From NCBI RefSeq assembly GCF_900129235.1, contig NZ_FQUV01000001.1:248001-312000 (forward strand): a stretch of 64,000 nt of DNA. The letters run 5' to 3'. Below the pieces are notes generated by a model that did no database searches, was not told the DNA's origin, and saw nothing but the letters and a program-made list of their open reading frames with translations. Each line of letters starts with the position of its first letter. Positions within the stretch are counted from its first letter, which is position 1. The DNA comes from Litoreibacter ascidiaceicola (GTDB lineage Bacteria > Pseudomonadota > Alphaproteobacteria > Rhodobacterales > Rhodobacteraceae). Made by a program: the position numbers and the translations under genes. Shown here in pieces: positions 10,470-55,791 of the stretch.

Positions 10470-12071
10470 TTGGAATTTGACTATGTGATTGTGGGCGCCG
10501 GCTCGGCTGGATGCGCTATTGCGAACCGCCTTTCCGAGAGCGGTAAACATAGCGTTGCCCTGCTCGAAGCAGGCGGGCGCGACAGCAATCCGTGGATCCA
10601 CATCCCCGTTGGCTATTTCAAAACCATGGATAACCCGAAAACGGACTGGCGCTACAAGGCGGCCAGCGATCCGGGCTTGAACGGGCGGTCTATCCCGTGG
10701 CCGCGTGGCCGTGTTCTGGGCGGTTCTTCCTCGATCAACGGTCTGCTATATGTGCGCGGTCAATCGCAAGATTACGATCATTGGGCCCAACTGGGAAATG
10801 CCGGATGGGACTGGGACCATGTCCTGCCCTACTTTAAGAAATCGGAAAACTGGCTTGGCGCAGACATTGGTGCGGACCGTGGAACTGGCGGACCTTTGCA
10901 AGTTTCCCCCACGCGCCTGAAGCGGGATATCGTGGACAAGTGGATCGACGCCGCCGAGGCCGCTGGCTATAAAAAGAACCCCGATTACAACGATGGCGAC
11001 CAAGAGGGCGTGGGCTATTTCCAACTCACGATGTCGAAGGGTCGCCGTTGCTCTTCGGCGGTGGCCTATTTGAAACCAGCCCGTGGTCGTCAAAACCTTG
11101 AGGTTATCACGCATGCCCAAGCCAAACGGCTCGTCCTTGATGGTAAACGGGTCGTCGGCGTGCAGGTTGACATCAACGGCCAGCACACCGAAATTCGCGC
11201 GCGACGGGAAGTTATTTTGTCAGCAGGATCAATAGGTTCCCCGCAAATCCTCATGTTGTCGGGCATCGGGGATGTGGACACGATCAAACCTCATGGCATC
11301 GACATGGTGCATGAGCTGAAGGGCGTCGGGCGCAACCTTCAAGATCACCTGCAAGCCCGTCCGGTGTTTAAAACGGACCTGTCGACCATCAACGTGGAAG
11401 TGTCCAACTACTTCAAGCAGGGTCTGATCGCGTTGGAATACGCGCTGAAACGCACCGGCCCGATGGCGATGGCCGCGAGCCTTGGCACCGGCTTTCTCAA
11501 GACAGAGCCACATATGGAGGTCCCCGACATCCAGTTTCACATACAGCCCTTTTCTGCGACGCATCCTGCGGAAGGCCCGCATAAATTCTCGGCCTTTACC
11601 GCGTCGGTCTTGCAACTGCGCCCCGAAAGCGCGGGCCATCTTGAGTTGAAATCGGCCAATTGGCAGGACCACCCCGCCATCCACCCGAATTATCTGGCGA
11701 CGGAAACCGACCAACGTACGATCGTGAAAGGCATCCAGATCGCCCGGCGCATCACAGAGTTCAGCCCGCTAAAAGAACATATTCTTGAGGAGTTTGCGCC
11801 GGGTCAGGACGTGGCCTTTAACGACTATGACGGCACCCTCGACTGGGCGCGCAACACCGCCGTTACGATCTACCACCCGACCGGGACCTGCAAGATGGGG
11901 CAAGACGACATGTCCGTCGTTGACGCGCGCTTACGGGTGCATGGCATCGAAGGTTTGCGGGTCGCGGACTGCTCCATCATGCCGACGATCGTGAGCGGCA
12001 ACACCAACGCGCCGGCGATCATGATCGGCGAGAAAGTCTCTGATATGATCCTTGAGGACACCGCAGCATGA
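10470..12071 (+). CDS. GMC-family FAD-dependent alcohol/choline-type dehydrogenase
   Basis: This flavoprotein oxidises an alcohol group. It starts at TTG (10470), with GGAGGG just upstream; the FAD-binding Rossmann motif begins almost at once (DYVIVGAGSAGCAIANRLSE), which leaves no room for a later start. Other GMC signatures are the ADP-ribose acidic end LLEAGG, GGSSSINGLLYVRGQ (about 80-94), the second GMC signature GSIGSPQILMLSGIG (about 253-267), and the C-terminal catalytic histidine region YHPTGTCKMG (about 470). The length of 533 aa is typical of choline dehydrogenase-like enzymes. It overlaps terC by ATGA and leads a cluster with a TRAP importer, so the alcohol is probably imported or formed from the imported substrate. 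Confidence 0.93.
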   Translation: MEFDYVIVGAGSAGCAIANRLSESGKHSVALLEAGGRDSNPWIHIPVGYFKTMDNPKTDWRYKAASDPGLNGRSIPWPRGRVLGGSSSINGLLYVRGQSQDYDHWAQLGNAGWDWDHVLPYFKKSENWLGADIGADRGTGGPLQVSPTRLKRDIVDKWIDAAEAAGYKKNPDYNDGDQEGVGYFQLTMSKGRRCSSAVAYLKPARGRQNLEVITHAQAKRLVLDGKRVVGVQVDINGQHTEIRARREVILSAGSIGSPQILMLSGIGDVDTIKPHGIDMVHELKGVGRNLQDHLQARPVFKTDLSTINVEVSNYFKQGLIALEYALKRTGPMAMAASLGTGFLKTEPHMEVPDIQFHIQPFSATHPAEGPHKFSAFTASVLQLRPESAGHLELKSANWQDHPAIHPNYLATETDQRTIVKGIQIARRITEFSPLKEHILEEFAPGQDVAFNDYDGTLDWARNTAVTIYHPTGTCKMGQDDMSVVDARLRVHGIEGLRVADCSIMPTIVSGNTNAPAIMIGEKVSDMILEDTAA

Positions 12072-12736
12072 TCGACACTTTACTGGATTTCGGCAAAATC
12101 GTCGTCGCTGACCTGATCCTGTCAGGCGACAACGCGTTGATCATCGGCATGGCGGCGGCAGGTCTTGCGCCTGAATTACGCAAGAAGGCCATTCTCTACG
12201 GCATGATCATCGCCGCTGTTTTGCGCATCGCCTTCGCTGTGGTCGCGACGAAACTGCTGGGCATTCCCGGCATCTTGTTTGTTGGCTCCCTGCTGCTGTT
12301 TTGGGTGTGCTGGCGGCTCTACACCGAAATTCGCGATAACGTAGATGAACAGGCCGAACTTGCGCTAGAGCGCGCCGAAGACCCGAACAGAGGCTATACC
12401 GGCAAGCCCACGCGGACGATGGCCTCGGCGCTGCTGTCGATCACCATCGCTGACGTCTCGATGTCGCTTGATAACGTGCTGGCCGTTGCCGCGATTGCCG
12501 ATGGCGACACCAATATGCTGATCTTCGGGCTTGGCCTTGCCATCGTGTTGATGGCCTTTGCCGCAACCATGATCATGAAACTGTTAACCCACTATCCTTG
12601 GATCAGCTGGCTGGGGCTGATCGTGCTGCTCTACGTGGCCGGCGAGATGTTCTACCGCGGCGTCTTTGACGCCAGTACCGGGATCGGCCCGATGATGGGC
12701 TGGATCGAAGGGTATGAGATGGGCAAGGGCCACTAG
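12068..12736 (+). CDS. TerC/YjbE-family integral membrane protein
   Basis: This 222-aa polytopic membrane protein has about seven hydrophobic segments and the two TerC hallmark motifs with acidic residues in membranes: DLILSGDNALIIGMA (about 14-28) and SITIADVSMSLDNVLAVAA (about 124-142). Members transport or sense metal ions such as Mn2+ and are often linked to metal supply for secreted proteins. The start overlaps the GMC stop (ATGA), so it belongs to the operon, though its tie to alcohol oxidation is not obvious. Confidence 0.9.
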   Translation: MIDTLLDFGKIVVADLILSGDNALIIGMAAAGLAPELRKKAILYGMIIAAVLRIAFAVVATKLLGIPGILFVGSLLLFWVCWRLYTEIRDNVDEQAELALERAEDPNRGYTGKPTRTMASALLSITIADVSMSLDNVLAVAAIADGDTNMLIFGLGLAIVLMAFAATMIMKLLTHYPWISWLGLIVLLYVAGEMFYRGVFDASTGIGPMMGWIEGYEMGKGH

Positions 12737-12870: not shown

Positions 12871-13974
12871 ATGTTGAACTTGAAAACCATCACGGCAGGC
12901 GCGCTAGGCTTGTCGATGTTGGCCTCGGCGGCATTTGCCGAGACCACAATTCGCGTGCAGTCGGTTATTCCGTCATCTGCGGATGAAATCGTCATGCTGA
13001 AAGACTTCGCCGAAGACGTGAAAGCGTTGACCGACGGTGAAGTCGTCATCGAAGTGCTGCCCGCAGGCTCCGTCGTGGGCGTGCAGGAAACGCTGGACGC
13101 GGTTGACGCGGGCCTGATCGAGGGCGGCTTCGCTTGGACGCATTACTGGTCCGGCAAGCACCCCGCCGCCATGCTCTTCGGCTCGCCTGTGGCCGGTGCC
13201 GGTGTCGGCATCGACAACATCGCGTTCATGTCGTGGTTCCTGAATGCAGGCGGCAAGGAGCTGTATGACCAGCTGTGGGTCGAGATGGGCGTGAACGTCA
13301 AAGGCTTCATGCTGCAACCGGTTGGCCCAGAGGCTCTGGGTTGGTTCAAAGAACCCATCGAGACCATGGCCGACTTCCGCAAATACCGCTTCAGGACACC
13401 TCCGGGCATTCCGGGCCAGACCTATAAGGACATCGGCGTGGCCTCGGTTGCCATGGGCGGTGGGGACATCCTGCCCGCGCTGGAAAAAGGCACAATCGAC
13501 GCGGCGGAATGGTGCTGCCCTAAGCCTGACAGCGTCTTTGGTTTCCAGAAAGTCCTGAAGCATTACTACCTTCAAGGCTTGCACCAAGTGGTTGTGAACG
13601 CTGATCTTTACATCAATGGCGACGTCTAAAAATCCTTGACACCCTTGCAGCAGAAAGCCATCGAAGTGGCCGCCAACGCGTCGCTGATGAAGTCCATGGC
13701 CTACCGCATCCGCGAAAACGGGCTGGCACTGGACAAGCTGGTGAACGAGGACGGCGTGATCTTGCATGACACGCCTGCCGACTACTTCACCGAGTATATG
13801 GCCGCTGCCAACAAGGCTCTGGAAACCAACGCCGCCGACAACGCGTTCTTTGCGGAAGTGTGGCAGTCTCAGAAGGACTTCGCACGGACCGCAGTTCCGT
13901 TCTGGGCCGGTGCACAGACCTCCAACGCCAATCTGGGCCGCGCCTATGCGGCTGAACTGGCTGCAGGCAAGTAA
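12871..13974 (+). pseudogene. TRAP transporter substrate-binding protein (DctP family), interrupted by an in-frame stop
   Basis: The periplasmic binding protein of the TRAP importer starts at ATG 12871 behind AGGGAGGACC and has a signal peptide ending ASAAFA. The TakP-like DctP fold is readable through QPVGPEALGWF, FRTPPGIPGQTYKDIG and EWCCPKPDSVFGFQKV. The frame reads GAC GTC TAA AAA TCC TTG (TAA at 13627-13629), then continues in the same frame with LTPLQQKAIEVAANASL and a normal C-terminus to 13974. Without the stop the product would be 367 aa, normal for the family. One base change (for example Tyr TAC/TAT to TAA) explains it. The two remaining frames look otherwise intact, so the event is recent, strain-specific, or a sequence error. 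A truncated 252-aa protein would lack the C-terminal helices and probably not work. Confidence 0.9.
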
Positions 13975-14055: not shown

Positions 14056-14685
14056 ATGATCAACGAAGATCAAGACAAGATCGACTTCTCGGAATACGAG
14101 AATGTCGGCGACGAGCTTCTCGCGGATGCGGGCGGAGCCGTGGGCAAGAAACTGCCCGACGACATGCACCCCCTTGCCCGCAAGGCCATTTACGCCATCG
14201 ACAATTTCTCCAATTGGCAAGGCCGGATCGCCTGCTTGCTGGTGGTGCCGATCATCTTCGGGATGTTCTACGAGGTTATCGCGCGCAGCTTCTTTCTTGC
14301 GCCCACGTTATGGGCCTATGATCTATCTCGCATCCTTTACGGCGTGTCCTTCATGCTGGGGGCTGCCTACGCGCTGATGCGCGGGTTGCACATCCGAGCC
14401 GACTTCCTTTACCGCGGCTTCACCGAGCGCACGCAAGGCCGCGTCGACCTGATCCTTTATCTCGTGCTGTTCATGCCCTCGATGATGTTCTTCCTGAAAG
14501 CCGGTTACGACTTCTCGCTAAAGTCCTTCCTTCAGGGCGAGCGTGCGGGCGACAGCACCTGGGCGCCCATCGTGTGGCCCGTCAAAATCGCTCTGACCAC
14601 CGGTGTGTTTTTCCTCTGCATCCAAGGCGTGTCTGAAATACTCAAATCGTGGTACGCCGCGACCCGTGGAAAGTGGCCGGTCTAA
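14056..14685 (+). CDS. TRAP transporter small permease (DctQ family)
   Basis: This is the small membrane subunit of the TRAP importer. Residues 1-55 form an acidic cytoplasmic extension (MINEDQDKIDFSEYENVGDE), longer than in many DctQ proteins. Four hydrophobic segments follow, from about residue 55 to 205. The motif MLGAAYALMRGLHIRADF (about 100-117) is typical of DctQ. The gene overlaps the large permease by TAATG and lies 81 bases after the binding-protein gene, so the three parts form one transport operon. Confidence 0.92.
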   Translation: MINEDQDKIDFSEYENVGDELLADAGGAVGKKLPDDMHPLARKAIYAIDNFSNWQGRIACLLVVPIIFGMFYEVIARSFFLAPTLWAYDLSRILYGVSFMLGAAYALMRGLHIRADFLYRGFTERTQGRVDLILYLVLFMPSMMFFLKAGYDFSLKSFLQGERAGDSTWAPIVWPVKIALTTGVFFLCIQGVSEILKSWYAATRGKWPV

Positions 14686-16016
14686 TGGAATTCTCTAATG
14701 AAATAATTGGCCTGTTCATGATCGGGGCAATGCTGTTCGCGATTTTCATCGGCTTCCCCATTTCCTTCACCCTGATCTTCCTTGGTGTCGTCTTCGGCGC
14801 GTGGGGATTTGGAGTAAAGCTGACCATCTTCCTGATGACCCTGCAATTCTACAACTCGATGATGGAGCAGACCCTCGCGGCTGTCCCGTTATTTGTCTTC
14901 ATGGGCTTTATGATGGAACAGGCAGGCTTGATGGAACGCCTCTTCGCGGCGATCCAGATGATGCTGGCCCGCATGAAAGGCTCGCTTTATGTGGCCGTGC
15001 TGTTCGTCTCCGTGGTCTTTGGCGCAGCAACGGGCATCGTGGGGGCTTCGGTCACCATTCTGGGCATCATGGCGGCGAAAACCATGAATCGCTCCGGCTA
15101 TGACGTGCGGCTGGCCGCAGGGACGATCACGGCGGGCGGAACCTTGGGCATCCTGATCCCGCCGTCGATTATGCTGGTGGTCATGGGCCCTGTGCTGGAA
15201 ATCCCGGTCACCGACCTGTTCGCCGCCGCGATCATTCCGGGCGTCATGATGGCTGCGCTATACCTGATCTATGCGGTCGGGCGCTGCTGGATAAACCCCA
15301 AGCTTGGCCCGCCCTTGCCGGAAGAGCTGATCGAGCCGGACAAAAGCAAGATCGCTTGGGAACTGCTTTGGGGGTTTGTGCCACCCACGATCCTGATCGC
15401 CTTCGCGCTCGGCTCGATCCTGTTCGGGTTGGCCACGCCCACCGAGGGCGCAGGTATGGGCGCGTTCGGCTCCATCCTGCTGGCGATGGGTTACCGCAAG
15501 TTCACGCTGAAAGGCTTCTACGACGCGTTGATCAAAACCTTGGAAATCTCGGTGCTGATCCTGTTCCTTGTGGCGGCGTCCAACTTCTTTGGCGCGGTGT
15601 TCTCCCGCCTTGGTACGCCAACAATGATCACCGAGCTGTTGCTGAACCTCGACGTGTCGGCATCCGTGGTGGTGATCTTGATCCTCGCGCTGGTTTTCGT
15701 GCTGGGCTGGCCGCTGGAATGGGTGCCGATTGTGCTGATCATCCTGCCGATCCTCGCACCTGTGCTGCTGGAGTTGCAGGTCGACATGCTGTGGTTCGCG
15801 ATCCTTGTGGCGGTCTGTCTGCAAACCGCGTGGCTCAGTCCGCCCGTGGCGCTATCGGCCTACTTTCTGAAAGGCGTGGTGCCGGAGTGGGACCTAAAGG
15901 ACATCTATCTGGGCATGATGCAGTTCATGGTGATCCAGCTGGTCGGCCTCGGGATGGTTTTCGCCTTCCCCGCTATCGCGACGTGGTTGCCGGTGTATCT
16001 GTACGGCGGCGGCTGA
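14685..16016 (+). CDS. TRAP transporter large permease (DctM family)
   Basis: This is the 12-segment ion-coupled translocation subunit, about 443 aa from ATG 14685. The start overlaps the dctQ stop; the longer reading from 14649 adds nothing family-like. Typical DctM stretches are visible: AAVPLFVFMGFMMEQAG, AGTITAGGTLGILIPPSIM (substrate-path glycine/proline motif) and LATPTEGAGMGAFGSILLA. It faces a convergent K+ channel gene. The substrate is unknown; the TakP-like binding protein suggests an organic acid. Confidence 0.94.
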   Translation: MEFSNEIIGLFMIGAMLFAIFIGFPISFTLIFLGVVFGAWGFGVKLTIFLMTLQFYNSMMEQTLAAVPLFVFMGFMMEQAGLMERLFAAIQMMLARMKGSLYVAVLFVSVVFGAATGIVGASVTILGIMAAKTMNRSGYDVRLAAGTITAGGTLGILIPPSIMLVVMGPVLEIPVTDLFAAAIIPGVMMAALYLIYAVGRCWINPKLGPPLPEELIEPDKSKIAWELLWGFVPPTILIAFALGSILFGLATPTEGAGMGAFGSILLAMGYRKFTLKGFYDALIKTLEISVLILFLVAASNFFGAVFSRLGTPTMITELLLNLDVSASVVVILILALVFVLGWPLEWVPIVLIILPILAPVLLELQVDMLWFAILVAVCLQTAWLSPPVALSAYFLKGVVPEWDLKDIYLGMMQFMVIQLVGLGMVFAFPAIATWLPVYLYGGG

Positions 16017-39045: not shown

Positions 39046-39667
39046 GTGACGGCAAAGGTCCGCAATAGTAGAAACATAGGTCAATATTATTAAATGAATT
39101 TCTTAGGATTCAATTCTCAGATACCGCAATCAATACCACGCCAATTCTAAAAACTTACTGATTTTGCTCTTCCATAAACCACGGGCATGCCGATATTCAG
39201 GGCCAAATGCTAACATACGAGGCACCGACGCCTTTACTGATTGGGTCCCCTATTGATACCGATCGACATCAGCCCATCCATCCTACTGTTCACCATTCTA
39301 ACTCTCCAAATTGCAGAAAAAGGCCAAGTCTAACCTGCTGGGTGAAGCAGCTGGTTCGTCCCATGAGTTGCAGTTCGCGCTAGCTGCGGCGGGCGAGCCA
39401 TAAAGGTTCATACCAAGCTTCTGACAATAAGCCCTTTGGGCCACGGGGGGATCAGTTGGGCAAAACCGGCATTGGGACAATCGGCCTAGCAAAAGCAATC
39501 ATTTTCGGCTCTGAGTTCCACGCCGGGTTCCTCTGCCACGATGCATCGACAGATGGCAATCCATGCGAACCTTCGTGTCTGCTAAGCAGTTATGCACCCA
39601 TAAGAATATTTCCGGCCGTATAGCGTCGCGCGGTATAAACGGCTCTCAAAACAACAACAATTATTGC
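39046..39667. other. Gene-poor stretch between the nar regulator and the uronate locus
   Basis: About 620 bp with lower G+C than either side and no convincing gene. Only short frames are open, and none has a family match I recognise. A run near 39450-39530 (plus frame DQLGKTGIGTIGLAKAI) vaguely recalls a dehydrogenase Rossmann motif and may be decayed coding DNA. Confidence 0.5.
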
Positions 39668-40726
39668 TCAGGGAACGGCAGGCAGATCAACTGATCGGCC
39701 CGTACTGGACGAGATCTCAATCGCCTCTATCACCCGCTGAGAGATCAGCGCTTCGCGGCCTGTCACCATCGGCCTTCCGCCGGTCTGGACAGCATGGACG
39801 AAGTCCTCGATCACGGCTTGATGCCATTCATGCGTGCCTCCCGACAGCGGCGTAACGACGTGGCCCGCCCCTCTTTGCGCGCAGACCTCGTGCCGCCCGT
39901 CACGCCAATCGACTTCGAGAGCATTTTTGTCGATGCGCAATGACGCCCGGTCAAAATGCAGCCGGATCACCTCAGTGCGATGTGGATACATCGCTGTACT
40001 GGCCACGAATGAGCCCACAGCCCCGCAGGCAAATTCCAGACCAGCGACGGCGAAGTCTTCCGCCTCCATCCGGTGCAAAGACGTAGTCGCCGTCATCGCC
40101 TGAATGCGTGTTAGGGGACCAGTAAGGCTCAGCGCGAGGTCGATTGAGTGGATCGCGTTGGTGATCATCACCCCACCACCATCGCGGGTGTAGGTGCCTC
40201 GCCCCAACTCGTCATAATAGGATTGATCGCGCCAAAGCGGCACCGCGATCTCGACGAGGCCGAGCTTCCCAAGTGTGTCACTGGCAACAAGTCGGGCGGC
40301 GGCAATTGAAGGCGCTCTCTTCCGGTGCTGGAACACCACGCCGAGGGCCACGCCCGCGCGTTCGCAAAGTTCAACAATCTCTTCCGCTTCCGCAACGGTC
40401 CTCGCGACGGGTTTTTCGAGAAGGATGTGTTTGCCTGCCTTTGCCAGGCCCTCGATGATCTCAAGTCGTACGCTGGGCGGTGTCGCCACAATCGCGATGT
40501 GAATGTTCGGATTTGCGGCAATCGCGTCCAAATCAGATGTGAAAGTCGGCGCGTCACCTGAATAGAATTCTGCAAGCGGCTGTGCGCGGTCGGGATGTCG
40601 CGAGACGATCGCCTCAAGGCGTATTTTTCCTCTAGCGGACGACAAAGCTGACACATGAGTTTTTGCAATCATGCCCGCACCGACCAAGGCGACGCCGACA
40701 GGTGTTTTAATATCAGCCATGGTCAT
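39668..40726 (-). CDS. Gfo/Idh/MocA-family oxidoreductase B
   Basis: This 352-aa NAD(P)-dependent sugar-acid or inositol-type oxidoreductase starts at ATG 40726, which shares a base with the stop of the ManD-like gene (TGATG). The N-terminal Rossmann motif is VGVALVGAGMIAKTHVSAL (about 8-26). The catalytic-lysine region EKPVARTVAEAEEIV is at about 95-109, and the C-terminal domain has the GGGVMITNAIHSIDLALSL stretch (about 185). Last gene of the leftward arm. A role in reducing or oxidising a hexuronate or aldonate is inferred from neighbours only. Confidence 0.88.
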   Translation of the reverse strand: MTMADIKTPVGVALVGAGMIAKTHVSALSSARGKIRLEAIVSRHPDRAQPLAEFYSGDAPTFTSDLDAIAANPNIHIAIVATPPSVRLEIIEGLAKAGKHILLEKPVARTVAEAEEIVELCERAGVALGVVFQHRKRAPSIAAARLVASDTLGKLGLVEIAVPLWRDQSYYDELGRGTYTRDGGGVMITNAIHSIDLALSLTGPLTRIQAMTATTSLHRMEAEDFAVAGLEFACGAVGSFVASTAMYPHRTEVIRLHFDRASLRIDKNALEVDWRDGRHEVCAQRGAGHVVTPLSGGTHEWHQAVIEDFVHAVQTGGRPMVTGREALISQRVIEAIEISSSTGRSVDLPAVP

Positions 40727-41952
40727 CAATAATTCCAAAGAGTCCCGTCTTCGAGCCTGACAACCGGATGGCTGCCAGGCTTGTATTCATACCGCTTGGC
40801 TTCGGTTTCATCGAAATCCACACCAAGACCGGGTGCCTCACTTACGTAAAACAACCCGTCCCGCATCTTATGCTCTGACGGGAATAGTGCGTCGCATTCG
40901 GGTGTTCCAAGGACAAGGTATTCCTGGATGCCAAAGTTCGGGGCCCATGCATTCAGATGGTGCTGGGCCGCCATCGAAATGGGCGAATGACTGGGCGCGC
41001 CGTGAAAACCTGTGCGGACGTGGTGCTGGCCAGCAAGATCGACGACGCGCTTCGCATGCGTGATGCCGCCCGCATAGGTCACGGCGATGCGTATGAAGTC
41101 GATCAACTCATTCTCGATGAGCTTGTTGCACTCCCATATCGAATTGAAGACCTCACCAATGGCGAGTGGTGTGGTGGAATGCTGACGGATGAGACGGATC
41201 GCATCCTGATCCTCAGCCGGTGTCGGATCTTCGAGCCAGTAGAGACCAACGGGTTCGACGGCTTTGGCAAGCTCAGCCGCCTCGCGTGGTAGAAGCCGGT
41301 GGTGCACGTCGTGAAGGATCTTGAGATCCGGCCCGAAGCGATCACGAATTTCGGCCAATGCGCCGGGCATGAAACGCATGTAACGGTCCGTGTCCCAGAT
41401 TTCGGTCTTGGGACGAATTCCGCTGAAATCAGTAATGTAATCACCGCCAGCGTTCTTTTCCTCGGGCACCGCATAACTGGCGGTCGGCATGCCGGGAATG
41501 CCGCATTGTACGCGAACAGCCTTGTAGCCTTGCTCGACGTAAGACTCGACGCTGTCCATCAGATCCGGCAGATCGACCCCAGTGGAATGGGCATAGACCA
41601 TCGCCCCATCGCGGCTTTTGCCCCCGAACAATTGATAAAGGGGCATGTTAGCCAGTTTGCCCTTGATGTCCCAGAGCGCCATGTCGATCGCGCCAAACGC
41701 GGCCATGGAAATTGGACCGCGTCGAAAATAGGCCCCGCGATAGAAGAACTGCCAGATGTCTTCGGAGTTGCGCGGGTCCATCCCGATCAAGTTCGGGATC
41801 AAGTAGTCCTGCAAATAGGCAGCAGGCAGCGTTTCGCGATTGTTCAGCGTTGCATCGCCCAACCCGTAAACTCCCTGATCCGTCATGATCTTGAGCGTGA
41901 CATAGTTCTTTCCCGGTCCGCCGACGAAGACCTTTGCATCACTGATTTTCAT
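40726..41952 (-). CDS. Mannonate dehydratase-like enolase-superfamily enzyme (ManD family)
   Basis: This 408-aa enzyme would dehydrate D-mannonate (or a close aldonate) to 2-keto-3-deoxygluconate (KDG). ManD features are in place: Arg147 in AVRVQCG and Tyr160, metal ligands Asp215 (HDVHHRL, with His217), Glu241 (WLEDP) and Glu267 (AIGEVF), and the late FHGAPSHSP loop. The chain is typical in length (family about 400). The start ATG 41952 has GAGGTGA upstream and overlaps the preceding gene by ATGA. Related ManD proteins differ in substrate, including gluconate, so mannonate is the best but not a proven choice. Confidence 0.9.
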   Translation of the reverse strand: MKISDAKVFVGGPGKNYVTLKIMTDQGVYGLGDATLNNRETLPAAYLQDYLIPNLIGMDPRNSEDIWQFFYRGAYFRRGPISMAAFGAIDMALWDIKGKLANMPLYQLFGGKSRDGAMVYAHSTGVDLPDLMDSVESYVEQGYKAVRVQCGIPGMPTASYAVPEEKNAGGDYITDFSGIRPKTEIWDTDRYMRFMPGALAEIRDRFGPDLKILHDVHHRLLPREAAELAKAVEPVGLYWLEDPTPAEDQDAIRLIRQHSTTPLAIGEVFNSIWECNKLIENELIDFIRIAVTYAGGITHAKRVVDLAGQHHVRTGFHGAPSHSPISMAAQHHLNAWAPNFGIQEYLVLGTPECDALFPSEHKMRDGLFYVSEAPGLGVDFDETEAKRYEYKPGSHPVVRLEDGTLWNY

Positions 41953-43085
41953 GGTGTCACCTCTGATATTACGGCCCACGTGCCGGATTTCCGGATCACG
42001 TCGATGATGTTCTGATAGAGGCTCCCTTGTGCGAAGGTCGGATAAGTTGGCACGGCTTCGCCGCGGATGTCGCGCAAGAAATGGTTTACCAGAACGTGCC
42101 AGCATTGTTCGGTTTCGCCCAACCCTTTGGGCACAGCCTCGATGAGGTCGGCGGGTGTTGGCGTTTCTATCCAGTCCGATCCGTCATGCACATAGAGTGC
42201 TCCGGAGCCGTAGTGCCCCTTAAGATAAATAGCGCCTTTGGTGCCGTAAATTGCGATGTGGTCGTCGTGGAAACGCGGCACCAGACCGCCGTGTTTGAAG
42301 AGCACAGAGACGGGCTGGCGAGCCAGCGGGCTGCCCAGACGCGCCATCACGGTATAGGACCACTCGACATTGCTTTCGCCCCACTCAAGCGACGGATCGT
42401 CCAGATCGTCGGGAATGAAAGCCCGGCGTTTGGTGAAGTCGTGAACGCCACTGATCTTGGGCGCGCGGCCAAGATCATCGCGAACATCGCCTGCAATTTG
42501 CAGGATGTCCCCTCCCGTAAGCGCCTGCGCAATGGCGAGTGAATGAGTGAAGTTGTTGTTGAGCCGCCCACCGCCGTCTTCGGCCCGATGTGACCAGCCA
42601 AACGGAATGCCGCGTTCAAGGTTGAAATGCGAAATGCTCTCGATCTCGGTCGGCTCACCAATCGCACCGTCCGCGATCAACCGTTTGGCGTGCTGGACGC
42701 TGGGCGTGTATTGAAAGCTGGCGGCGTAGGCGGTTTTGACGCCCTTGGCTGTGGCCAATTCATGAAGTTCGCTCGCCGTGGAGCCTTTGGTCGTCATCGG
42801 CTTGTCGCAGAACACGTGACAGCCTTCCGCGATGGCCTGTTTGATTTGCTCGTAGTGGGCTCCGCCGGGCGTCGCGATAGAGACAATGTCCGGTTTCAAT
42901 TCGGACAAGGCGGCCGCCCAATCTGTGCCAGCATAGGGGATCGCCAGCTCGGCTGCCACATCACGTACCACGTGACCCGTACGCCCCACCATTCCGACGA
43001 CCTGTGTGCCTGCTGCGCGAAAGGCCGCTGTGTGGCCTTTGCCGGCAAATCCGGTGCCTGCGACAAGAATTTTTGGCCGCGTCAT
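41949..43085 (-). CDS. Gfo/Idh/MocA-family oxidoreductase A
   Basis: This 378-aa protein has a Rossmann domain (KILVAGTGFAGKGHTAAFRA, about 4-23), the catalytic-lysine motif FCDKPMTTKGSTASEL (about 92-107) and a C-terminal domain with GGGRLNNNFTHSLAIAQAL. It is only distantly like oxidoreductase B in the same operon. ATG 43085 overlaps the stop of the SDR remnant by ATGA, and its own stop overlaps the ManD-like start. Likely reduces or oxidises a sugar acid feeding the ManD-like step. Confidence 0.88.
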   Translation of the reverse strand: MTRPKILVAGTGFAGKGHTAAFRAAGTQVVGMVGRTGHVVRDVAAELAIPYAGTDWAAALSELKPDIVSIATPGGAHYEQIKQAIAEGCHVFCDKPMTTKGSTASELHELATAKGVKTAYAASFQYTPSVQHAKRLIADGAIGEPTEIESISHFNLERGIPFGWSHRAEDGGGRLNNNFTHSLAIAQALTGGDILQIAGDVRDDLGRAPKISGVHDFTKRRAFIPDDLDDPSLEWGESNVEWSYTVMARLGSPLARQPVSVLFKHGGLVPRFHDDHIAIYGTKGAIYLKGHYGSGALYVHDGSDWIETPTPADLIEAVPKGLGETEQCWHVLVNHFLRDIRGEAVPTYPTFAQGSLYQNIIDVIRKSGTWAVISEVTP

Positions 43086-43213
43086 TGTCCCACCCATTCC
43101 CCGTCTACGGGGTGCGTAATGCCTGTCACAAAGCGTAGAGCGGGCGAGGCAAGGTAGGTGGCAGCCCCGGCGATGTGTTCCGGCTCGGCCCGGCGAAGGT
43201 TGGTTTTGAGCAT
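43082..43213 (-). pseudogene. Remnant of a short-chain dehydrogenase (internal deletion)
   Basis: A 43-codon frame starts at ATG 43213 with AGGAGA upstream. It begins MLKTNL, a usual SDR opening, then jumps to RRAEPEHIAGAATYLASP and ALRFVTGITHPVDGEWVGQ, the C-terminal end of an SDR (the part after the active site, with the VTG-x-x-x-x-VDGG-like strand). The Rossmann motif and catalytic Ser-Tyr-Lys are missing. About 200 residues appear deleted in frame. The overlap with the next gene (ATGA) is retained, so it may still serve as a translational leader. Confidence 0.75.
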
Positions 43214-43251
43214 TGGTTTCTCCTGTGATGCAGAATGTTGTGGTGCGGTGA

Positions 43252-44625
43252 TCAGGCCGCGACGTCGGACCGTTTCCAGTCGCCGCGCCAGAGGCGGCGG
43301 TGGAAGGCGGGAAATTTCAGCACCTCTTCCCAAAGAAACAGCGATAGGATCCAGAAGGCGGAAAAATCAAAGTAAAGCACAAACAAAGCCGTCGCGGGCA
43401 CTCGGAACGCCCATTGGGTCCAAATGAAAATGTGCATGACATAGACGGTGTCCCCCGCTGCGCGCAGGGTATTGCCACAGATCGCGTTTGTTGCGCGAGG
43501 GAACTGGATAATCATCAGGATCGGCAGGAAGCTGAAAAGGATGGCACGGGTTTCCACCTCAAGGTTCGGATAGATCCAGTCGAGTGACAAGCACATGGCC
43601 AGAAAGATCATCGAGACGATACCGGCTGCCACGAAGGCCCCCATCCAAGCCCGCGACAGGAAGTGATCGAGGACGTCTTCGGGTGTGCGTTTGCCCAGCA
43701 GTTGGGCAACGAGGATACCTGTCGCCTGTGTCCACTGCATCGCGACCTGTCCAGCCAGTAAGTTCCATGGCGCAATGAGGGTCATGGCTGCAAATCCGTT
43801 CAACGACATATTTGCATAGATCAATGAGCAGACATGGGTGGCAAGCGTCGCGCTTACAAAAGTTGCAGCAATGGGCAGAGCGAAATGCATGTGTCGTTTG
43901 ACGGTGGGCACGAAGGTTCCACGATGCCAACCGACCACGTGGCGCAGATGGCCGTTGGTGCGTAACAGCAAGACGCTCCAAAACGCTGTTTGAAGCGTGA
44001 TTGCGATGGCGCTGCCAAGGGCCGCCCCCGCCACACCCAGCGCGGGAAAGCCAAAAAGACCATGGATCAGGACGATGCTGATGGTGATATTGACCGGCAC
44101 AGACAGCAGGTAGCCATAAAGGGGCAACTTGCTGCGGCTACAGCCATTGAAGAAACTTGCAATACACTGACCGACGGCCTCTGCAATTATGACAACGGTG
44201 AAGATAGACAGATAGGTTTGCGCCTGTTGTGCAATCTCGACCGAGGGGGCCAATGCGTTGATCAACGTGCCGCCCCAGATGTGGATGGCCGCAACGCCAA
44301 TGACGCCAATGCTCAAACTGACGGCCAAACCCGACGCCAACACCGACTTCAAGAAAATCTGATCTCCGCCTCCGAACGCCTGCGCGGTCCGGATCTGCAT
44401 GGCATGGGAGAATGCGAAAATCACACCAAGGACGATCCCGCCAAGGGCTGCCGCGAGACCCATCGCAGCAAGTGGACCTTCGCCAAGAGAAGACAGCAAA
44501 AATCCGTCGATCACGACGGTTCCGTGCAGAAAAATCGCCTTTAGCGTCATCGGCCAAGCGAGAGAGAACACGTCTTTCGCACCCGGTGAAGGCATCGCAT
44601 CTTTCTGCACTGACTTTGTGGGCAT
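43252..44625 (-). CDS. MATE-family multidrug/metabolite transporter
   Basis: This membrane protein has about 12 hydrophobic segments in two related halves of six. The first half opens with SLAWPMTLKAIFLHGTVVIDGFLLSSLG and contains GGGDQIFLKSVLASGLAVSL, as in the MATE fold; the second contains AAMTLIAPWNLLAGQVAMQWTQATG. Start ATG 44625 (457 aa) is used; ATG 44595 is also possible. It lies between the GntR gene and the SDR remnant in the leftward uronate arm, where an efflux or uptake role for a sugar acid or a toxic intermediate is a guess. Confidence 0.85.
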   Translation of the reverse strand: MPTKSVQKDAMPSPGAKDVFSLAWPMTLKAIFLHGTVVIDGFLLSSLGEGPLAAMGLAAALGGIVLGVIFAFSHAMQIRTAQAFGGGDQIFLKSVLASGLAVSLSIGVIGVAAIHIWGGTLINALAPSVEIAQQAQTYLSIFTVVIIAEAVGQCIASFFNGCSRSKLPLYGYLLSVPVNITISIVLIHGLFGFPALGVAGAALGSAIAITLQTAFWSVLLLRTNGHLRHVVGWHRGTFVPTVKRHMHFALPIAATFVSATLATHVCSLIYANMSLNGFAAMTLIAPWNLLAGQVAMQWTQATGILVAQLLGKRTPEDVLDHFLSRAWMGAFVAAGIVSMIFLAMCLSLDWIYPNLEVETRAILFSFLPILMIIQFPRATNAICGNTLRAAGDTVYVMHIFIWTQWAFRVPATALFVLYFDFSAFWILSLFLWEEVLKFPAFHRRLWRGDWKRSDVAA

Positions 44626-44694
44626 GGACCGGTTCCGTAACTGCACGTCGCCTTACGGTCGAACCATGCGGAGGATCGCCTGCAAACAGATGGT

Positions 44695-45390
44695 CTAATC
44701 TGTCGTCTGGCGTTCAAAATAGTTTGCGTTTGTGGCTGTGATCCGAGCGATCGTGTCGTCGAGGCGAGACAGGTGTTTCAACCCGGCCTCAACGGCTTTG
44801 TTCGCATCGTGGACTTTGATGGCCTCTGCGATCTCGCGGTGATCGGCTACGAGCTCGGGCATCCGTTGTTCTTTTTCCATCCCCAACATGCACAGCCGAT
44901 CAACCTTAGCCTTTTCTTCAAGAATGACGTCGAAGGCGTAGTCGGCCTCTGCGATCTCGCACAGGGTCCGGTGGAAATCATAGTCGAGCTGGCCAAACCG
45001 TTCGACGTCTTTGGCTTCGGCAACGGCTTGCTGCTGGATCAGCTCCGCATCCAGTTGTGCAGCACCCATCGTGTCGCACTTGGCGGCAGCCCGGTGAAGG
45101 ACCTCCGTTTCGATCGCGGTGCGGATAAAGCGGGACTTCTCAATCTGACGCATCGAGAAGCGTCGTACTTCCGTTGCGCGCTGTGGGCGAATGAGCAGGA
45201 GATCAAGGTTGGCAAGGCGACCGAAAGCATCCCGAACAGGTTGCCGCGAGACGCCGAAGTCCGCAGCGATCTCGGCCTCGGATATCTTGTCACCCGGCTT
45301 GAGCTGCAACGAGGCTATCTGCTCGTGAAGGTAATCGAATATATCGTCAACACTGGTACGACGTTTGCTTCGAGCTATTGATGGCGCCAT
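44695..45390 (-). CDS. GntR-family regulator (FadR/FCD subfamily)
   Basis: This 231-aa regulator has an N-terminal winged helix ([31 protein letters not shown], shown in part, about residues 35-65) and a helical FCD effector domain (about 85-220) with a metal-binding pattern [22 protein letters not shown] and [12 protein letters not shown] regulators commonly sense uronates, gluconate or related acids. It is divergent from the ABC importer, with three copies of an ACTAGTAT motif between them, and leads the leftward arm. It most likely represses both arms until a pathway intermediate binds. Confidence 0.92.
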
Positions 45391-45441
45391 CTTTTCAGCC
45401 CCTCCCGAGCTATCAATCTGTACAGGCTTAGCAAAAACAAA

Positions 45442-45488
45442 ACTAGTATGCCAGACTAGTATTTTAATTTATCGACTAGTATACCAGA
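45442..45488. promoter_or_regulatory. Putative GntR operators, three ACTAGTAT repeats
   Basis: ACTAGTATGCCAGA (45442-45455) and ACTAGTATACCAGA (45475-45488) are the same 14-mer with one difference, 33 bp apart, and a third ACTAGTAT lies at 45455-45462. The TAGTATACCA core resembles FCD-type GntR sites such as TGGT-N2-ACCA. They lie between the divergent gntR and the ABC-transporter gene. Confidence 0.65.
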
Positions 45489-45550
45489 TGCAGGCGAGCG
45501 ATTCGTCGCAGGTGAGCCGCCCGTTCGGGCCGCACCAAAGGGAGGGGACC

Positions 45551-46627
45551 ATGTCCGGTGTAAATCTAAGCGGTATCGTGAAATCATACGGTGCTATGCA
45601 GGTGGTCCACGGGATCGACCTGACGGTGGCAGAAAAAGAATTTGTTGTACTTGTCGGCCCATCCGGCTGCGGCAAATCCACGACGCTCCGCATGATTGCG
45701 GGTCTTGAAGAAATCACAGCAGGCGATCTGACGATCCATGACCGCCGTGTTAATCGGATCGCACCTAAAGACCGCGATGTCGCGATGGTGTTCCAGAACT
45801 ACGCTCTCTACCCGCACTTGAATGTGGCCGACAACATGGCGTTCGGCTTGCGCATTCGCAAAATGCCTAAAAACGAGATCAAAACGACAATCGACGACGT
45901 CGCCGAAATTCTCGGGTTAACCGAATACCTCGACCGCCGTCCCGCCGACCTTTCTGGCGGCCAGCGCCAGCGGGTCGCAATGGGCCGTGCGATTGTCCGT
46001 CATCCCAAAGTATTTCTGTTTGATGAGCCACTCTCTAACCTTGATGCAAAGTTGCGCACCCAGATGCGCGCTGAAATCAAACGTCTGCACAAACGACTGG
46101 GGGTAACGTCCGTCTACGTGACCCACGATCAAGTTGAAGCCATGACCCTTGCCGACCGGATCGTCGTGATGAACAACGGTGCCATAGAGCAGATCGGCAC
46201 CCCGATGGAGTTGTTCAACAACCCGAGCAATACATTCGTCGCAGGCTTCCTCGGCTCCCCGCCAATGAACCAAATGAAGGGGACGCTGACAGACTCAGGC
46301 GCTCTGGTTGGTGATGTGGAAATCAAAATCAACGGTGCGACGGGGCCACATGCGGGTCGAAATGTTATCGTCGGCATTCGCCCGGAACATGTGACCCTCA
46401 CGGCTGAAGAAGGGACATCTCCCCTACCGATCAACCTTGATCTGGTGGAACCGCTTGGCTCGGAAGCTTTGCTGCACGCCCGCCACGGCGAAGACAACCT
46501 TGTCTTCAAAGCGAATACCGAAAACGACATTGATAGCCTCTCCGGCGTCAACAAAGTCCACATACCGGCTCATCTGGTCAAGATTTTCGATGCAGATACC
46601 GGCAAAGCACTTGTGCTTGGGGATTGA
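45551..46627 (+). CDS. ABC sugar importer ATPase (UgpC/MsmK type)
   Basis: This 358-aa ATPase starts at ATG 45551 with GGAGGGG upstream. It has Walker [10 protein letters not shown] (about 37), signature [15 protein letters not shown] (about 133), Walker [13 protein letters not shown] (about 154), [14 protein letters not shown], and the C-terminal TOBE/regulatory domain (about 235-355) of sugar importers ([10 protein letters not shown]). It drives the two permeases downstream. First gene of the rightward arm, under the GntR operators. Confidence 0.96.
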
Positions 46628-46632
46628 AGCTG

Positions 46633-47634
46633 ATGACCGATGAACACACAACCGCCGGCGGACAGTCTTATGAAGAGTCCGTGATTGAGGCCAGCGAAGC
46701 AAATCGACAGCGTTTCGATGATGGTCGCTGGACCCGCATTTTTGATCATTTCAAGCGCGAGTGGCAGATCTACGCGATGCTGCTGCCGACGATCATCTGG
46801 TTCCTCGTCTTCCTGTATAAGCCAATGTATGGCCTGCAAATCGCCTTCAAAGACTATTCGATCTTCCGCGGCGTCGCTGGAAGCCCTTGGGTCGGATGGG
46901 AGCACTTCCAAACGCTCTTTTCGAACGATCAGTTCATTCGGGCCGTCAAAAACACGATCACAATCAGTTTCTACAATCTGCTCTTTGGTTTCCCCGCGCC
47001 GATCATCCTTGCACTGATGTTCAACGAGGTCATGCACGCAACCTACAAGCGGACATCTCAGACGATCGTTTACCTGCCGCACTTTATCTCTTCGGTGATT
47101 ATCGCAGGTATCGTCATCACCGCATTTTCCCCGACAGCGGGCATCATCAACACGTTCATCGGATGGCTTGGTTTTGAGCCAGTCTACTTTCTGACACAGC
47201 CACAATGGTTCCGCCCGATCTTCGTGGGTACGGGCATCTGGCAAGAGGCGGGGTTCGGCTCCATTGTGTTTCTTGCGGCCATTGCCGGTGTTAACCCGTC
47301 GCTCTACGAAAGTGCGGTAGTGGACGGAGCGAACCGTTGGCAGATGATGTGGAAAATTACCATTCCTTCGATCCTGCCAACGATCCTGATCATGCTGATC
47401 ATTCGTATCGGCAACGTGATGGAAGTCTCGTTCGAGTTGGTCATCCTGCTTTATCAGCCATCAACCTATGAGACTGCGGATGTGGTCAATACCTGGGTCT
47501 ATCGCCAGGGTCTCCAGTCCGGTCAATACGATCTCGCTGCTGCTGCAGGCCTCTTCAATGCTGTCGTCGCCTTCGTTCTGGTCATGACCGCCAACACCTT
47601 GTCGCGCCGCTTCTCGCGCACCTCACTCTGGTAG
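46633..47634 (+). CDS. ABC sugar importer permease, LplB/AlgM1-like
   Basis: This 333-aa permease has a cytoplasmic N-terminus of about 50 residues and six hydrophobic segments. The coupling loop is ESAVVDGANRWQMMWKITIPSI (in short: the EAA motif, about residues 220-240). The stretch LPTIIWFLVFLYKPMYGLQI is typical of LplB-type permeases that import oligouronides such as AlgM1. It begins 5 bases after the ATPase gene stop. Confidence 0.92.
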   Translation: MTDEHTTAGGQSYEESVIEASEANRQRFDDGRWTRIFDHFKREWQIYAMLLPTIIWFLVFLYKPMYGLQIAFKDYSIFRGVAGSPWVGWEHFQTLFSNDQFIRAVKNTITISFYNLLFGFPAPIILALMFNEVMHATYKRTSQTIVYLPHFISSVIIAGIVITAFSPTAGIINTFIGWLGFEPVYFLTQPQWFRPIFVGTGIWQEAGFGSIVFLAAIAGVNPSLYESAVVDGANRWQMMWKITIPSILPTILIMLIIRIGNVMEVSFELVILLYQPSTYETADVVNTWVYRQGLQSGQYDLAAAAGLFNAVVAFVLVMTANTLSRRFSRTSLW

Positions 47635-47646
47635 GAGGAACACGCT

Positions 47647-48528
47647 ATGATGAAATGGAACCTCTATTCACGCGGCGACAAGTTCTTTGCCATTGTTGTC
47701 TCTGTCCTGATCGGCCTGTTCACGGTCGCCACCCTTTACCCGTTTATTTACATCGCTGCTGTGTCGTTCAGTTCAGGCTTTGCGGCACAAGCGGGCAAGG
47801 TGGTGCTGACACCCATCGATGCAACAATCGAGGCTTACGGTTACATTCTGAAGGACCCCCAGTTCTGGATCTCGTACCGCAATACGTTCATTTACACGAT
47901 CGGCGGCACGATCATGTCGCTGATGTTTATCATCCCCTGCGCCTACGCCTTGTCGCGGCCGCAACTTAAGGGGCGCAGATTCTTCAATCTCTTCATCGCA
48001 TTTACAATGTGGTTCAACGCCGGGCTCATTCCGTTTTTCTTGAACATGCGTGATCTTGGACTGCTCGACAGCATGTTCGGCATCATCCTCGGCTTTGCGA
48101 TAAATGCCTTCAACATCATTTTGTTGCGCAACTTCTTTGAGTCGATCCCGCAGAGCTTTGAAGAAGCCGCCCGAATGGACGGCGCCAACGATTTCCAAGT
48201 GCTGTGGAAGGTTTTCATCCCGCTCAGCAAGCCCGCCATCGCCACGATCACCCTGTTCTTGATTGTCGCCCGCTGGAATGGCTTCTTCTGGGCCATGGTG
48301 CTGCTGCAGTCCGAAAGCAAGATCCCGTTGCAGGTGTTCCTGCGCCACACGATCTCGAACCTCAGCGACGATGACGAATTCGCGATTGTCCAGACGGCCG
48401 CCGGGTTCAGCGCCGAAACCGTCACTGCGGCGATCATCGTCTGTTCGATCATCCCCGTGCTGATCGTCTACCCGTTTATCCAGAAATACTTCGAGAAGGG
48501 CATCCTGCTTGGGGGCGTCAAAGAATAA
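47647..48528 (+). CDS. ABC sugar importer permease, LplC/AlgM2-like
   Basis: This 293-aa permease has six hydrophobic segments and the EAA coupling loop EEAARMDGANDFQVLWKVFI (about 172-191). It is preceded by AGGAGGA and lies 12 bases after its partner. The LplB/LplC pair type is the one found with alginate or pectin oligomer importers. Confidence 0.92.
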   Translation: MMKWNLYSRGDKFFAIVVSVLIGLFTVATLYPFIYIAAVSFSSGFAAQAGKVVLTPIDATIEAYGYILKDPQFWISYRNTFIYTIGGTIMSLMFIIPCAYALSRPQLKGRRFFNLFIAFTMWFNAGLIPFFLNMRDLGLLDSMFGIILGFAINAFNIILLRNFFESIPQSFEEAARMDGANDFQVLWKVFIPLSKPAIATITLFLIVARWNGFFWAMVLLQSESKIPLQVFLRHTISNLSDDDEFAIVQTAAGFSAETVTAAIIVCSIIPVLIVYPFIQKYFEKGILLGGVKE

Positions 48529-48557
48529 CTACGAAATCGCAAAAGGGAGGAAAACTT

Positions 48558-50120
48558 ATGCGTAAACTGAGCCTATTGGCAGCCTTGCTTGCAGGGAGTG
48601 CCGTCACAACACCGACTTTCGCTGACGGTCATCTGATGATCGTTGATGAGCCACTGGAACTGACAATCCAGATGAACCACGCCCGCTATCCGATCTACGA
48701 GGAAAGCTGGCCCGTTGAGCAGGCCGCCCGCGAGTTGACAGGCATCCACCTGATCAACGACACCGTCGGCGCGAACATGCGGACCGATGAAAACACAGGC
48801 CGCACCGAGGCGCTAAACCTGATGCTGGCCTCTGGTAATATCCCCGACATTGTCGGCTCCAGCCGGATCCGCGACTTTGTGAACCAGTTCGGCCCCGAGG
48901 GTGCATTTGTGCCACTCAACGATCTGATCGAAGAGCATGCGCCGAATATCGCGGCCTACTACGCCGAACGCCCCGATATCGAAGCAGCCGTTAAAGCTGC
49001 CGACGGCCAGATGTATTACGTACCCTATCTGCCCGATGGCAAATACGGTCGCGCGTTCTGGATCCGCACCGACTGGCTGGATGCCCTCGGCCTTGAGATG
49101 CCTGAGACGGTTGATGAGTATGAAGCGGTTCTGCGAGCCTTCAAAACCCAAGACCCCAACGGCAACGGCGAAGCCGACGAAGTTCCTTTCTTTGCCCGCC
49201 AGTGGCCTGAGCTTATCCGTCTGGTAACACTCTGGGACGGTCGCGCTCACGGCTCTGACACGTACCACGACTTCCTCGTGGAAGATGGTCAGGTCACCCA
49301 CGGCTACATCGGGGAAGGCTATCGCGAAGGGGTCAAAAATCTTGCCCGTTGGTATTCTGACGGTCTGATCGACGCGGAAATCTTCACCCGCGGTTCTTCT
49401 GCGCGTGACTTCCTGCTGTCCGAAAACCTTGGTGGTGCGACGCACGACTGGTTCGCCTCGACCGGTGGTTACAACAGCCTCTCGGAAAAAATCGACGGTT
49501 TCAAATGGGAAGCAATGCTGCCGCCTGCCTCTCCTTCCGGCCGCCGCATCGAAGAGCACCGCCGCATCCTCGTAAAACCTGATGGCTGGGCCATTGGCCA
49601 TACCAACGAAAATGTTGTCGAAACCGTCAAGTATTTCGACTTCTTCTTTACCGAGGAAGGCCGCCGTCTTGCCAACTTCGGCGTCGAGGGACAGCACTAC
49701 GAAATGGTAGATGGCAAGCCTGTGTTCACCGAGGAATTCCTTGCACAGGGGCCGGTCAACCGGTCGCTCTATCAGGCTGGCGCACAGCTTCAGGCCCGTG
49801 GTTACTTCCAGGATTACGACTATGAATGGCAGTGGACCAACGAGTTCGCCAAAGCCGGTATCGAACTCTACGAACAGGGTGATTATTTGATCCCCGACTT
49901 CCTCGGCGTGGCTTTCACCGCAGACGAACAACAAGTCTACGATCGCACATGGAACAGCATCCGCGACTATATGCTTGAGCGCCAGCAAAGCTGGATTCTC
50001 GGCAATGGCGACGTGGAGGCAGACTGGGACGACTATCTTGCTCAGCTCGACGAGATGGGCCTGCAAGAGCTTCTGGCTGTTATGCAGTCCGCCTACGAAC
50101 GTCAGTACGGCGCCAAGTAA
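48558..50120 (+). CDS. ABC importer extracellular substrate-binding protein (LplA/AlgQ-like)
   Basis: This 520-aa protein has a cleavable signal peptide (LLAALLAGSAVTTPTFADG) and no lipobox. Its length and the segments LNLMLASGNIPDIVGSSRI (about 92), RAFWIRTDWLDALGLEMPET (about 168) and the EF-hand-like calcium loop DPNGNGEADE (about 200-209) match the large type of binding protein such as AlgQ1/AlgQ2, which hold oligo-alginate. It follows a strong AGGGAGG site and precedes a hairpin. Substrate is inferred, not shown. Confidence 0.92.
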   Translation: MRKLSLLAALLAGSAVTTPTFADGHLMIVDEPLELTIQMNHARYPIYEESWPVEQAARELTGIHLINDTVGANMRTDENTGRTEALNLMLASGNIPDIVGSSRIRDFVNQFGPEGAFVPLNDLIEEHAPNIAAYYAERPDIEAAVKAADGQMYYVPYLPDGKYGRAFWIRTDWLDALGLEMPETVDEYEAVLRAFKTQDPNGNGEADEVPFFARQWPELIRLVTLWDGRAHGSDTYHDFLVEDGQVTHGYIGEGYREGVKNLARWYSDGLIDAEIFTRGSSARDFLLSENLGGATHDWFASTGGYNSLSEKIDGFKWEAMLPPASPSGRRIEEHRRILVKPDGWAIGHTNENVVETVKYFDFFFTEEGRRLANFGVEGQHYEMVDGKPVFTEEFLAQGPVNRSLYQAGAQLQARGYFQDYDYEWQWTNEFAKAGIELYEQGDYLIPDFLGVAFTADEQQVYDRTWNSIRDYMLERQQSWILGNGDVEADWDDYLAQLDEMGLQELLAVMQSAYERQYGAK

Positions 50121-50132
50121 ATCCACATGTTC

Positions 50133-50155
50133 GGGGCGGCGACCGTCGTCGCCCC
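50133..50155 (+). terminator. Hairpin after the binding-protein gene
   Basis: GGGGCGGCGA and TCGTCGCCCC form a 10-bp stem (one G-U pair) with a 3-nt loop, 13 bases after the binding-protein stop. It has no U-run. As in other sugar ABC operons, it may stabilise upstream mRNA so the binding protein is made in excess. Confidence 0.5.
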
Positions 50156-50196
50156 GACCCCTTCCTTTCCTACAAATCATGCGGGAACCCTGATCG

Positions 50197-52518: not shown

Positions 52519-52537
52519 TAATGACGCGGAGACCGAT

Positions 52538-52870
52538 ATGACGGTAAAGAACTATTTCCCCGGAGCCGAGGCCAAGCTTGAGACCGTCGCCGACGGGCTG
52601 GGCCGGAAAGTCGGTGCCCACAATGACAATCTGATGGTCGTCGAAGTGCATTTCGAGGCGGGTACGACAGCCCCGATGCACCACCACCCGCACGAACAGA
52701 TCACCTATGTCATGTCCGGCAAGTTCGAATTCACTGTCGGTGACGAAACCTACATCGTGACCGCCGGTGACTCGCTCTACAAGCAACCCAACATCGAACA
52801 CGGCGCAACCTGCCTTGAGGCTGGCACGCTGTTGGATGTCTTCACACCGCATCGTGAAGATTTCCTCTGA
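52538..52870 (+). CDS. kdgF: KdgF-like cupin (unsaturated uronate linearisation)
   Basis: This 110-aa single cupin has the metal motif APMHHHPHEQITYVMSG (about 46-62; three His) and a second part with EHGATCLEAG (His about 88). KdgF-type cupins turn the cyclic unsaturated monomer from lyases into the open-chain form (DEH). Size, motifs and position after the lyase fit. The ATG has GGAGA upstream. Confidence 0.85.
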   Translation: MTVKNYFPGAEAKLETVADGLGRKVGAHNDNLMVVEVHFEAGTTAPMHHHPHEQITYVMSGKFEFTVGDETYIVTAGDSLYKQPNIEHGATCLEAGTLLDVFTPHREDFL

Positions 52871-52909
52871 TCCAACAATTAAAATAGTAATTCCAACGGA
52901 GTACACATC

Positions 52910-53791
52910 ATGATCAAACCCGTTATCGGCTTCATCGGCCTCGGCCTCATGGGCGGAAATATGGTGGAGAACCTACAGAATCGCGGCTACGAACTGGTCG
53001 TGATGGACCTTAACAAAGATGCCGTTGCGACTGTGCTTGCCCGTGGCAAAGCGCAAGAGGCAGCCTCGCCGAAAGAGCTCGCCGAAAAGAGTGATATCGT
53101 CATGCTCTGCCTCACGACATCCGAGGTTGTCGAGAAGATTGTCTACGGCGATAACGGTGTCCTCGCGGGCATCAAGGAAGGCGCGGTGCTGATCGACTTC
53201 GGGACGTCGATACCGGCCTCGACCCGCAAGATCGGCGCGGACCTTGCCAAGAAGGGTGCGGGCATGGTCGATGCGCCATTGGGCCGGACCCCGGCGCACG
53301 CAAAGGACGGGTTGCTGAATATCATGGCGGCCGGTGACAAAGAGACCTTCGAGAAGGTCAAGCCTGTGCTTGAGGATCAGGGCGAGAATATCTTCTATCT
53401 TGGCGCACTCGGGGCTGGTCACGTAACCAAACTGATCAATAATTTCATGGGTATGACCACCGTCTGCACCATGAGCCAGGCTTTCGCCGTAGCCGACAGG
53501 GCCGGTGTCGATCGCGAGCAACTCTACGACATCATGTCGACGGGTCCGTCCAACTCACCGTTCATGGGGTTTTGCAAGAACTACGCCGTGGACGGTGTCA
53601 GCGATTTGGGCTTTTCCATCAACAACGCGAACAAGGACTTGGGGTACTTCCTGAAAATGGCCGAAGACATGGGCACCCGTGCCGAGATTGCCGAGGGCAC
53701 CTCGCACCACCTACAGGCAGCCGTGGACGCGGGCATGGGGAACGGCAACGTTCCGGAAATCTTCGACTATTTCATGAAGCTTGAAGCCTAG
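52910..53791 (+). CDS. Beta-hydroxyacid dehydrogenase (HIBADH/GarR family), DEH-reductase candidate
   Basis: This 293-aa oxidoreductase has the N-terminal GFIGLGLMGGNMVENLQNRG motif (about 5-24), substrate-binding APLGRTPAHAKDGLLNIM (about 121-138) and catalytic lysine in GHVTKLINNFMG (about 171). The family reduces or oxidises beta-hydroxy acids; some marine bacteria use such a protein (DehR) to reduce DEH to KDG. It sits between kdgF and the SDR gene, so either may be the DEH reductase. Confidence 0.9.
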   Translation: MIKPVIGFIGLGLMGGNMVENLQNRGYELVVMDLNKDAVATVLARGKAQEAASPKELAEKSDIVMLCLTTSEVVEKIVYGDNGVLAGIKEGAVLIDFGTSIPASTRKIGADLAKKGAGMVDAPLGRTPAHAKDGLLNIMAAGDKETFEKVKPVLEDQGENIFYLGALGAGHVTKLINNFMGMTTVCTMSQAFAVADRAGVDREQLYDIMSTGPSNSPFMGFCKNYAVDGVSDLGFSINNANKDLGYFLKMAEDMGTRAEIAEGTSHHLQAAVDAGMGNGNVPEIFDYFMKLEA

Positions 53792-53836
53792 GCGCAAGAC
53801 CCTCTCCGCGCGGCACCAACAACAGGAAGGACGATC

Positions 53837-54580: not shown

Positions 54581-54592
54581 AAAGTCGGAACC

Positions 54593-55516: not shown

Positions 55517-55530
55517 AAGACACCCCTTGC

Positions 55531-55791
55531 CGACCCCCCCGACCTGCGGAGATCATCGACCTGACGCCTGAAACGCTTGAGAAGCTGGCATAGGCCAGTA
55601 CAGCGAGCATGGCAAAGTTGCTGTTCAAACGCGGGTATCGCAACGCCTACATCCAAGGGGCTAACCCGTTAAATCTCAATGTCAAAACCATGGTCGGGCC
55701 AGCCTATACCCTACGCTACATTCCCACCCGTCCCGGCACCGACCCTCTGGGCAAATTCCGCGAACCCGACCACCGCAACGGGTTGCCATAG
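55531..55791 (+). pseudogene. RraA-family protein remnant (HMG/CHA-aldolase-like)
   Basis: After kdgK a single reading frame gives EIIDLTPETLEKLA, an in-frame TAG (55591-55593), then ASTASMAKLLFKRGYRNA and NPLNLNVKTMVGPAYTLRYI, the start of an RraA-family protein. It stops after about 85 codons, although members have 200-240 residues. The rest is missing. Complete relatives are common in sugar-acid operons. It probably decayed after the operon formed. Confidence 0.8.

Follow-up and report, generated by a model that had tools for sequence, protein, structure and literature searches.

A probable young nonsense mutation in a TRAP solute-binding protein gene of Litoreibacter ascidiaceicola

Introduction

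TRAP permeases depend on their binding protein, and genes of the TRAP DctP family (PF03480) have a dctP-dctQ-dctM operon layout. HpsN of Ruegeria pomeroyi is presumably a member of the HisD family. In that organism HpsN follows hpsM, and HpsKLM is a dihydroxypropanesulfonate TRAP transporter, according to the available part of the source paper (PMC4334477). The solved proteins nearest to the DctP considered here are 2hzk (SmoM) and 4yzz; both are distant, so a substrate cannot be assigned from them. The match to 24gc, a solved binding protein of a DHPS TRAP system, is weak at 27 bits. The literature, including the available parts of PMC4334477 and PMC10130141, yielded no substrate for this DctP subfamily, and a literature search found no publication on a TRAP transporter of a Litoreibacter genome.

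The window analysed here is a stretch of 64,000 nucleotides from a genome of the genus Litoreibacter (G000; 3.74 Mb, 22 contigs, completeness 99.98). It contains a gene of the same family in the same operon layout, but, unlike other members of the family, this dctP is without its last 114 residues owing to a premature stop. Like an ordinary nonsense pseudogene, it has one in-frame stop, conserved surroundings and relatives whose copies are intact; unlike one, it is too young for decay. By sequence comparison, the probability is roughly three in four that this TRAP solute-binding protein gene once worked and has recently acquired a nonsense mutation.

Structure of the locus

Table 1. Features of the dctP locus and its neighbours in the window
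Feature	Position	Strand	Remarks
GMC-family oxidoreductase, choline-dehydrogenase-like	10470-12071	+	adjoins dctP
TerC/YjbE-family membrane protein	12068-12736	+	near dctP
dctP before the stop	12871-13626	+	252 residues; PF03480 E=5e-23
Premature in-frame stop, TAA	13627-13629	+	one TAA inside the DctP match
dctP remainder	13630-13974	+	114 codons and own stop TAA
dctQ, small TRAP permease subunit, intact	14056-14685	+	PF04290 profile 2-129/132
dctM, large TRAP permease subunit, intact	14685-16016	+	PF06808 profile 2-412/413

A first-pass annotation of the window had described a TAA interrupting dctP, a normal C-terminus beyond it and intact permease genes downstream, and all three points are borne out. 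The open reading frames place TAA 13627-13629 in the dctP frame on the + strand. The ORF opens at ATG 12835, and the likely true start is ATG 12871, with GGGAGG upstream at about 12860; the N-terminus looks, by eye, like an export signal (MLNLKTITAGALGLSMLASAAFAE). The stop removes 114 of the 367 codons of the frame, which continues from 13630 as K-S-L-T-P-L-Q-Q-K-A-I-E-V-A-A-N-A-S-L and reaches its own TAA at 13972-13974. These residues align with intact orthologues that are 72-99% identical over the whole match, so the premature TAA is not a chance ORF boundary. Both permease genes are complete by their PF04290 and PF06808 matches and by comparison with congeners, and the likely dctM start, ATG 14685, overlaps the dctQ stop.

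Family membership is evident from PF03480, whose cut-off of 23.4 bits is passed by the N-terminal ORF alone (82.2 bits; profile positions 14-206 of 286) and by the whole frame with the stop replaced by X (101.1 bits; positions 14-276), and from the adjacent DctQ and DctM permease genes. The two-domain DctP is not contained in one open frame: the ORF stops short at position 206 of the profile's 286, and a profile search with the C-terminal piece alone matched no family. The read-through product is matched by 2hzk over residues 10-347 (E=4e-35). NCBIfam subfamily scores are under the cut-off for the window DctP and likewise for intact relatives, so the low score is no sign of damage. Of the paralogues listed for the query in this genome, the best is about 31% identical, which leaves no near backup copy. 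Among plasmid records, relatives are all under 60% identity. Two other DctP matches in the genome (L007 and L008) have identical scores and lie about 98 kb apart towards the two ends of one 121-kb contig (G000:C10), which could reflect either a duplication or an assembly end-overlap.

The gene neighbourhood recurs in part elsewhere. The GMC gene adjoins dctP also in a Pelagibacterales locus (L138) and in Marinovum algicola (L104), and a gene that by eye resembles the TerC-like one lies near dctP in L138. A HisD-family dehydrogenase gene stands 3' of dctM in both L138 and L104, an arrangement that recalls hpsKLM-hpsN of R. pomeroyi as described in the available part of PMC4334477. The window differs from hpsKLM-hpsN in having no HisD-family dehydrogenase gene 3' of dctM; outside this locus, the best HisD-like match in the genome has 52% identity. 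M. algicola FF3 seems to have both TRAP permease subunits, small and large, fused in one 772-aa ORF (L104:7216-9534).

A separate feature of the window is a stretch of about 17.5 kb (39053-56587) without a counterpart at the same place in the nearest congener (G001), which ends beside a tRNA-Ser(tga) gene on the - strand (about 56592-56678). Ten ORFs scanned from it include a heparinase II/III-like protein with DUF4962, a PfkB kinase, an SDR dehydrogenase, a 3-hydroxyisobutyrate-type dehydrogenase, an enolase-superfamily enzyme, two GFO/IDH/MocA oxidoreductases, MatE, an ABC ATPase and SBP_bac_8. The stretch looks like an inserted polysaccharide utilisation cluster, perhaps of alginate type.

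The stop position in relatives

The orthologue set comprises 103 rows from among the matches listed (23 loci, L014-L036, and 80 further kept loci), with the more distant L037-L043 outside it; at least five genomes occur twice (L020/L070, L021/L071, L022/L073, L024/L074 and L025/L115). The stop column is reached in 102 of these rows, which carry Tyr (72), Trp (19), Phe (10) or a stop (1), and every near relative has Tyr or Phe. The only stop is the window's own row (L014). None of the 101 other rows has one among the matches listed, as would be seen for the lesion of a nonsense pseudogene, which is absent from orthologues. L025/L115, L091, L102 and L103 were also flagged as carrying a stop; their frames simply finish two residues before the end of the query, with natural stops at query residue 366 of 368. 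A DNA search matched all 20 congeners, of which 19 reach the column and are open there (nine 87-99% identical, ten 72-73%), and one (G010) is a contig-end fragment that ends short of it. The comparison with close relatives that the first-pass annotation had proposed thus finds a private stop, and its claim that one base change would restore the gene agrees with the single codon that sets this dctP apart from its open relatives.

These same rows bear on the idea that the stop is read through, by a suppressor tRNA or programmed recoding, to give full-length protein. Every other row that reaches the column, among the matches listed, holds Tyr, Phe or Trp there, the C-terminal part is conserved, and tRNA-Tyr is not among the tRNAs found, all of which would suit such decoding. 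Among the matches listed, however, no relative keeps the stop, as conserved readthrough would have it, and TAA also terminates dctQ and the dctP frame itself. Nor do any of the 37 tRNAs read, at 39 places in the genome, have an anticodon for TAA (30 places read as returned loci and nine from extra stretches; the two that yielded none lie at contig ends). tRNA-Tyr was found neither by a covariance scan of the genome nor by three patterns, which leaves its anticodon unread, nor by a local scan of the fetched loci. When G001 and G003 were scanned in the same way and compared by score list, G001 gave identical full-length scores and one additional short match, so the scan is probably blind to tRNA-Tyr. 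Readthrough is very improbable. We give equally little credence to a variant in which TAA is decoded, at least in part, as an amino acid, leaving the strain with a working importer and a stop that throttles translation.

A split binding protein, with the stop yielding two functional polypeptides, is just as hard to credit. The C-terminal frame is open and offers TTG 13636 as a possible start, but by eye no Shine-Dalgarno sequence is seen before this TTG and no export signal on the remainder (13630-13974), and no relative among the matches listed is split. Readthrough and a split protein are both unlikely, and the preferred reading remains a young nonsense mutation.

Selection and age of the stop

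Purifying selection has acted strongly both before and after the stop: in comparison with the nearest congener, dN/dS is about 0.02-0.04 (dN 0.0043 and dS 0.234 before it; dN 0.0117 and dS 0.282 after it). Codon differences from G001 are 36 synonymous and 1 nonsynonymous in 253 codons before the stop, and 20 synonymous and 1 nonsynonymous in 113 from 13633 on. Over the whole gene the window branch has, besides the stop, two amino-acid changes that are private and a third that is ambiguous, whereas about 100 would be expected had the branch been neutral throughout. From this strong selection and these two or three private changes, the stop is estimated to have arisen in the most recent 6-8% of the lineage; the figure is a 95% Poisson upper bound and a rough one (dS 0.25, no multiple hits assumed). 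No relaxation of selection is seen past the lesion, as expected if the lesion is very recent or if there is none. The first-pass annotation rightly named recent loss, strain variability and a base error as the candidate explanations; of these, recent loss fits a stop private to the lineage (0 of 101 other rows among the matches listed) and a C-terminal part without decay. At 13279-13281, three adjacent bases are private to the window and give Val against Lys in the three nearest congeners compared.

Because the gene is undecayed, the same data also fit a base-calling or assembly error, with dctP intact in the organism. This reading is unlikely but deserves serious weight. It accords with the otherwise strong purifying selection and the lack of a second lesion in the gene, with the strong conservation of the family (orthologues are 74-77% identical even in Pelagibacterales), and with a small local oddity, as the codon after the stop (AAA, Lys) is also private to G000 among the near congeners aligned. 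Homopolymer sequencing errors are typically indels, however, and the lesion is a substitution. Stops occur inside 1 of 12 DctP matches in the genome (this gene), 0 of 94 ABC_tran matches and 0 of 43 adh_short (SDR) matches, so 0 of 148 other family matches hold one. In 46 kb aligned with G001, a crude ORF picker turned up no further clear lesion in the interior of a coding frame. This is a weak control: 41 window ORFs were chosen greedily, with antisense frames taken in places, including over dctP, and codon-position counts sorted most of these. As far as checked, the flagged ORFs are antisense frames or differ near the 5' end, rather than carrying interior coding-frame lesions.

The codons next to the stop differ too: of the 8 bases at 13629-13636, five do not match G001. 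A conversion tract or templated mutation was considered for this cluster and rejected: the 46-kb alignment with G001 contains 14 clusters as dense, so it is not unusual, and the 14-15 base tract is in no fetched locus outside G000. We infer that the stop is present in the living strain; most likely it is an ordinary, recent loss-of-function lesion of this strain.

Implications

If the nonsense mutation is real, translation would halt after 252 residues. The exported fragment would be missing the final 114 residues and with them, by alignment with 2hzk, much of the second half of the binding-protein fold, and would probably neither bind nor deliver solute. The downstream piece, with no export signal or evident ribosome site, would not be expected to rescue function. 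Since TRAP permeases do not work without their binding protein, DctQM would then be idle for the substrate and transport would be lost. In annotation, the strain should be recorded as probably without this importer, or the sequence checked. With a real stop, the strain would provide a case of natural loss in a family of binding proteins whose strong conservation extends from Rhodobacteraceae to Pelagibacterales.
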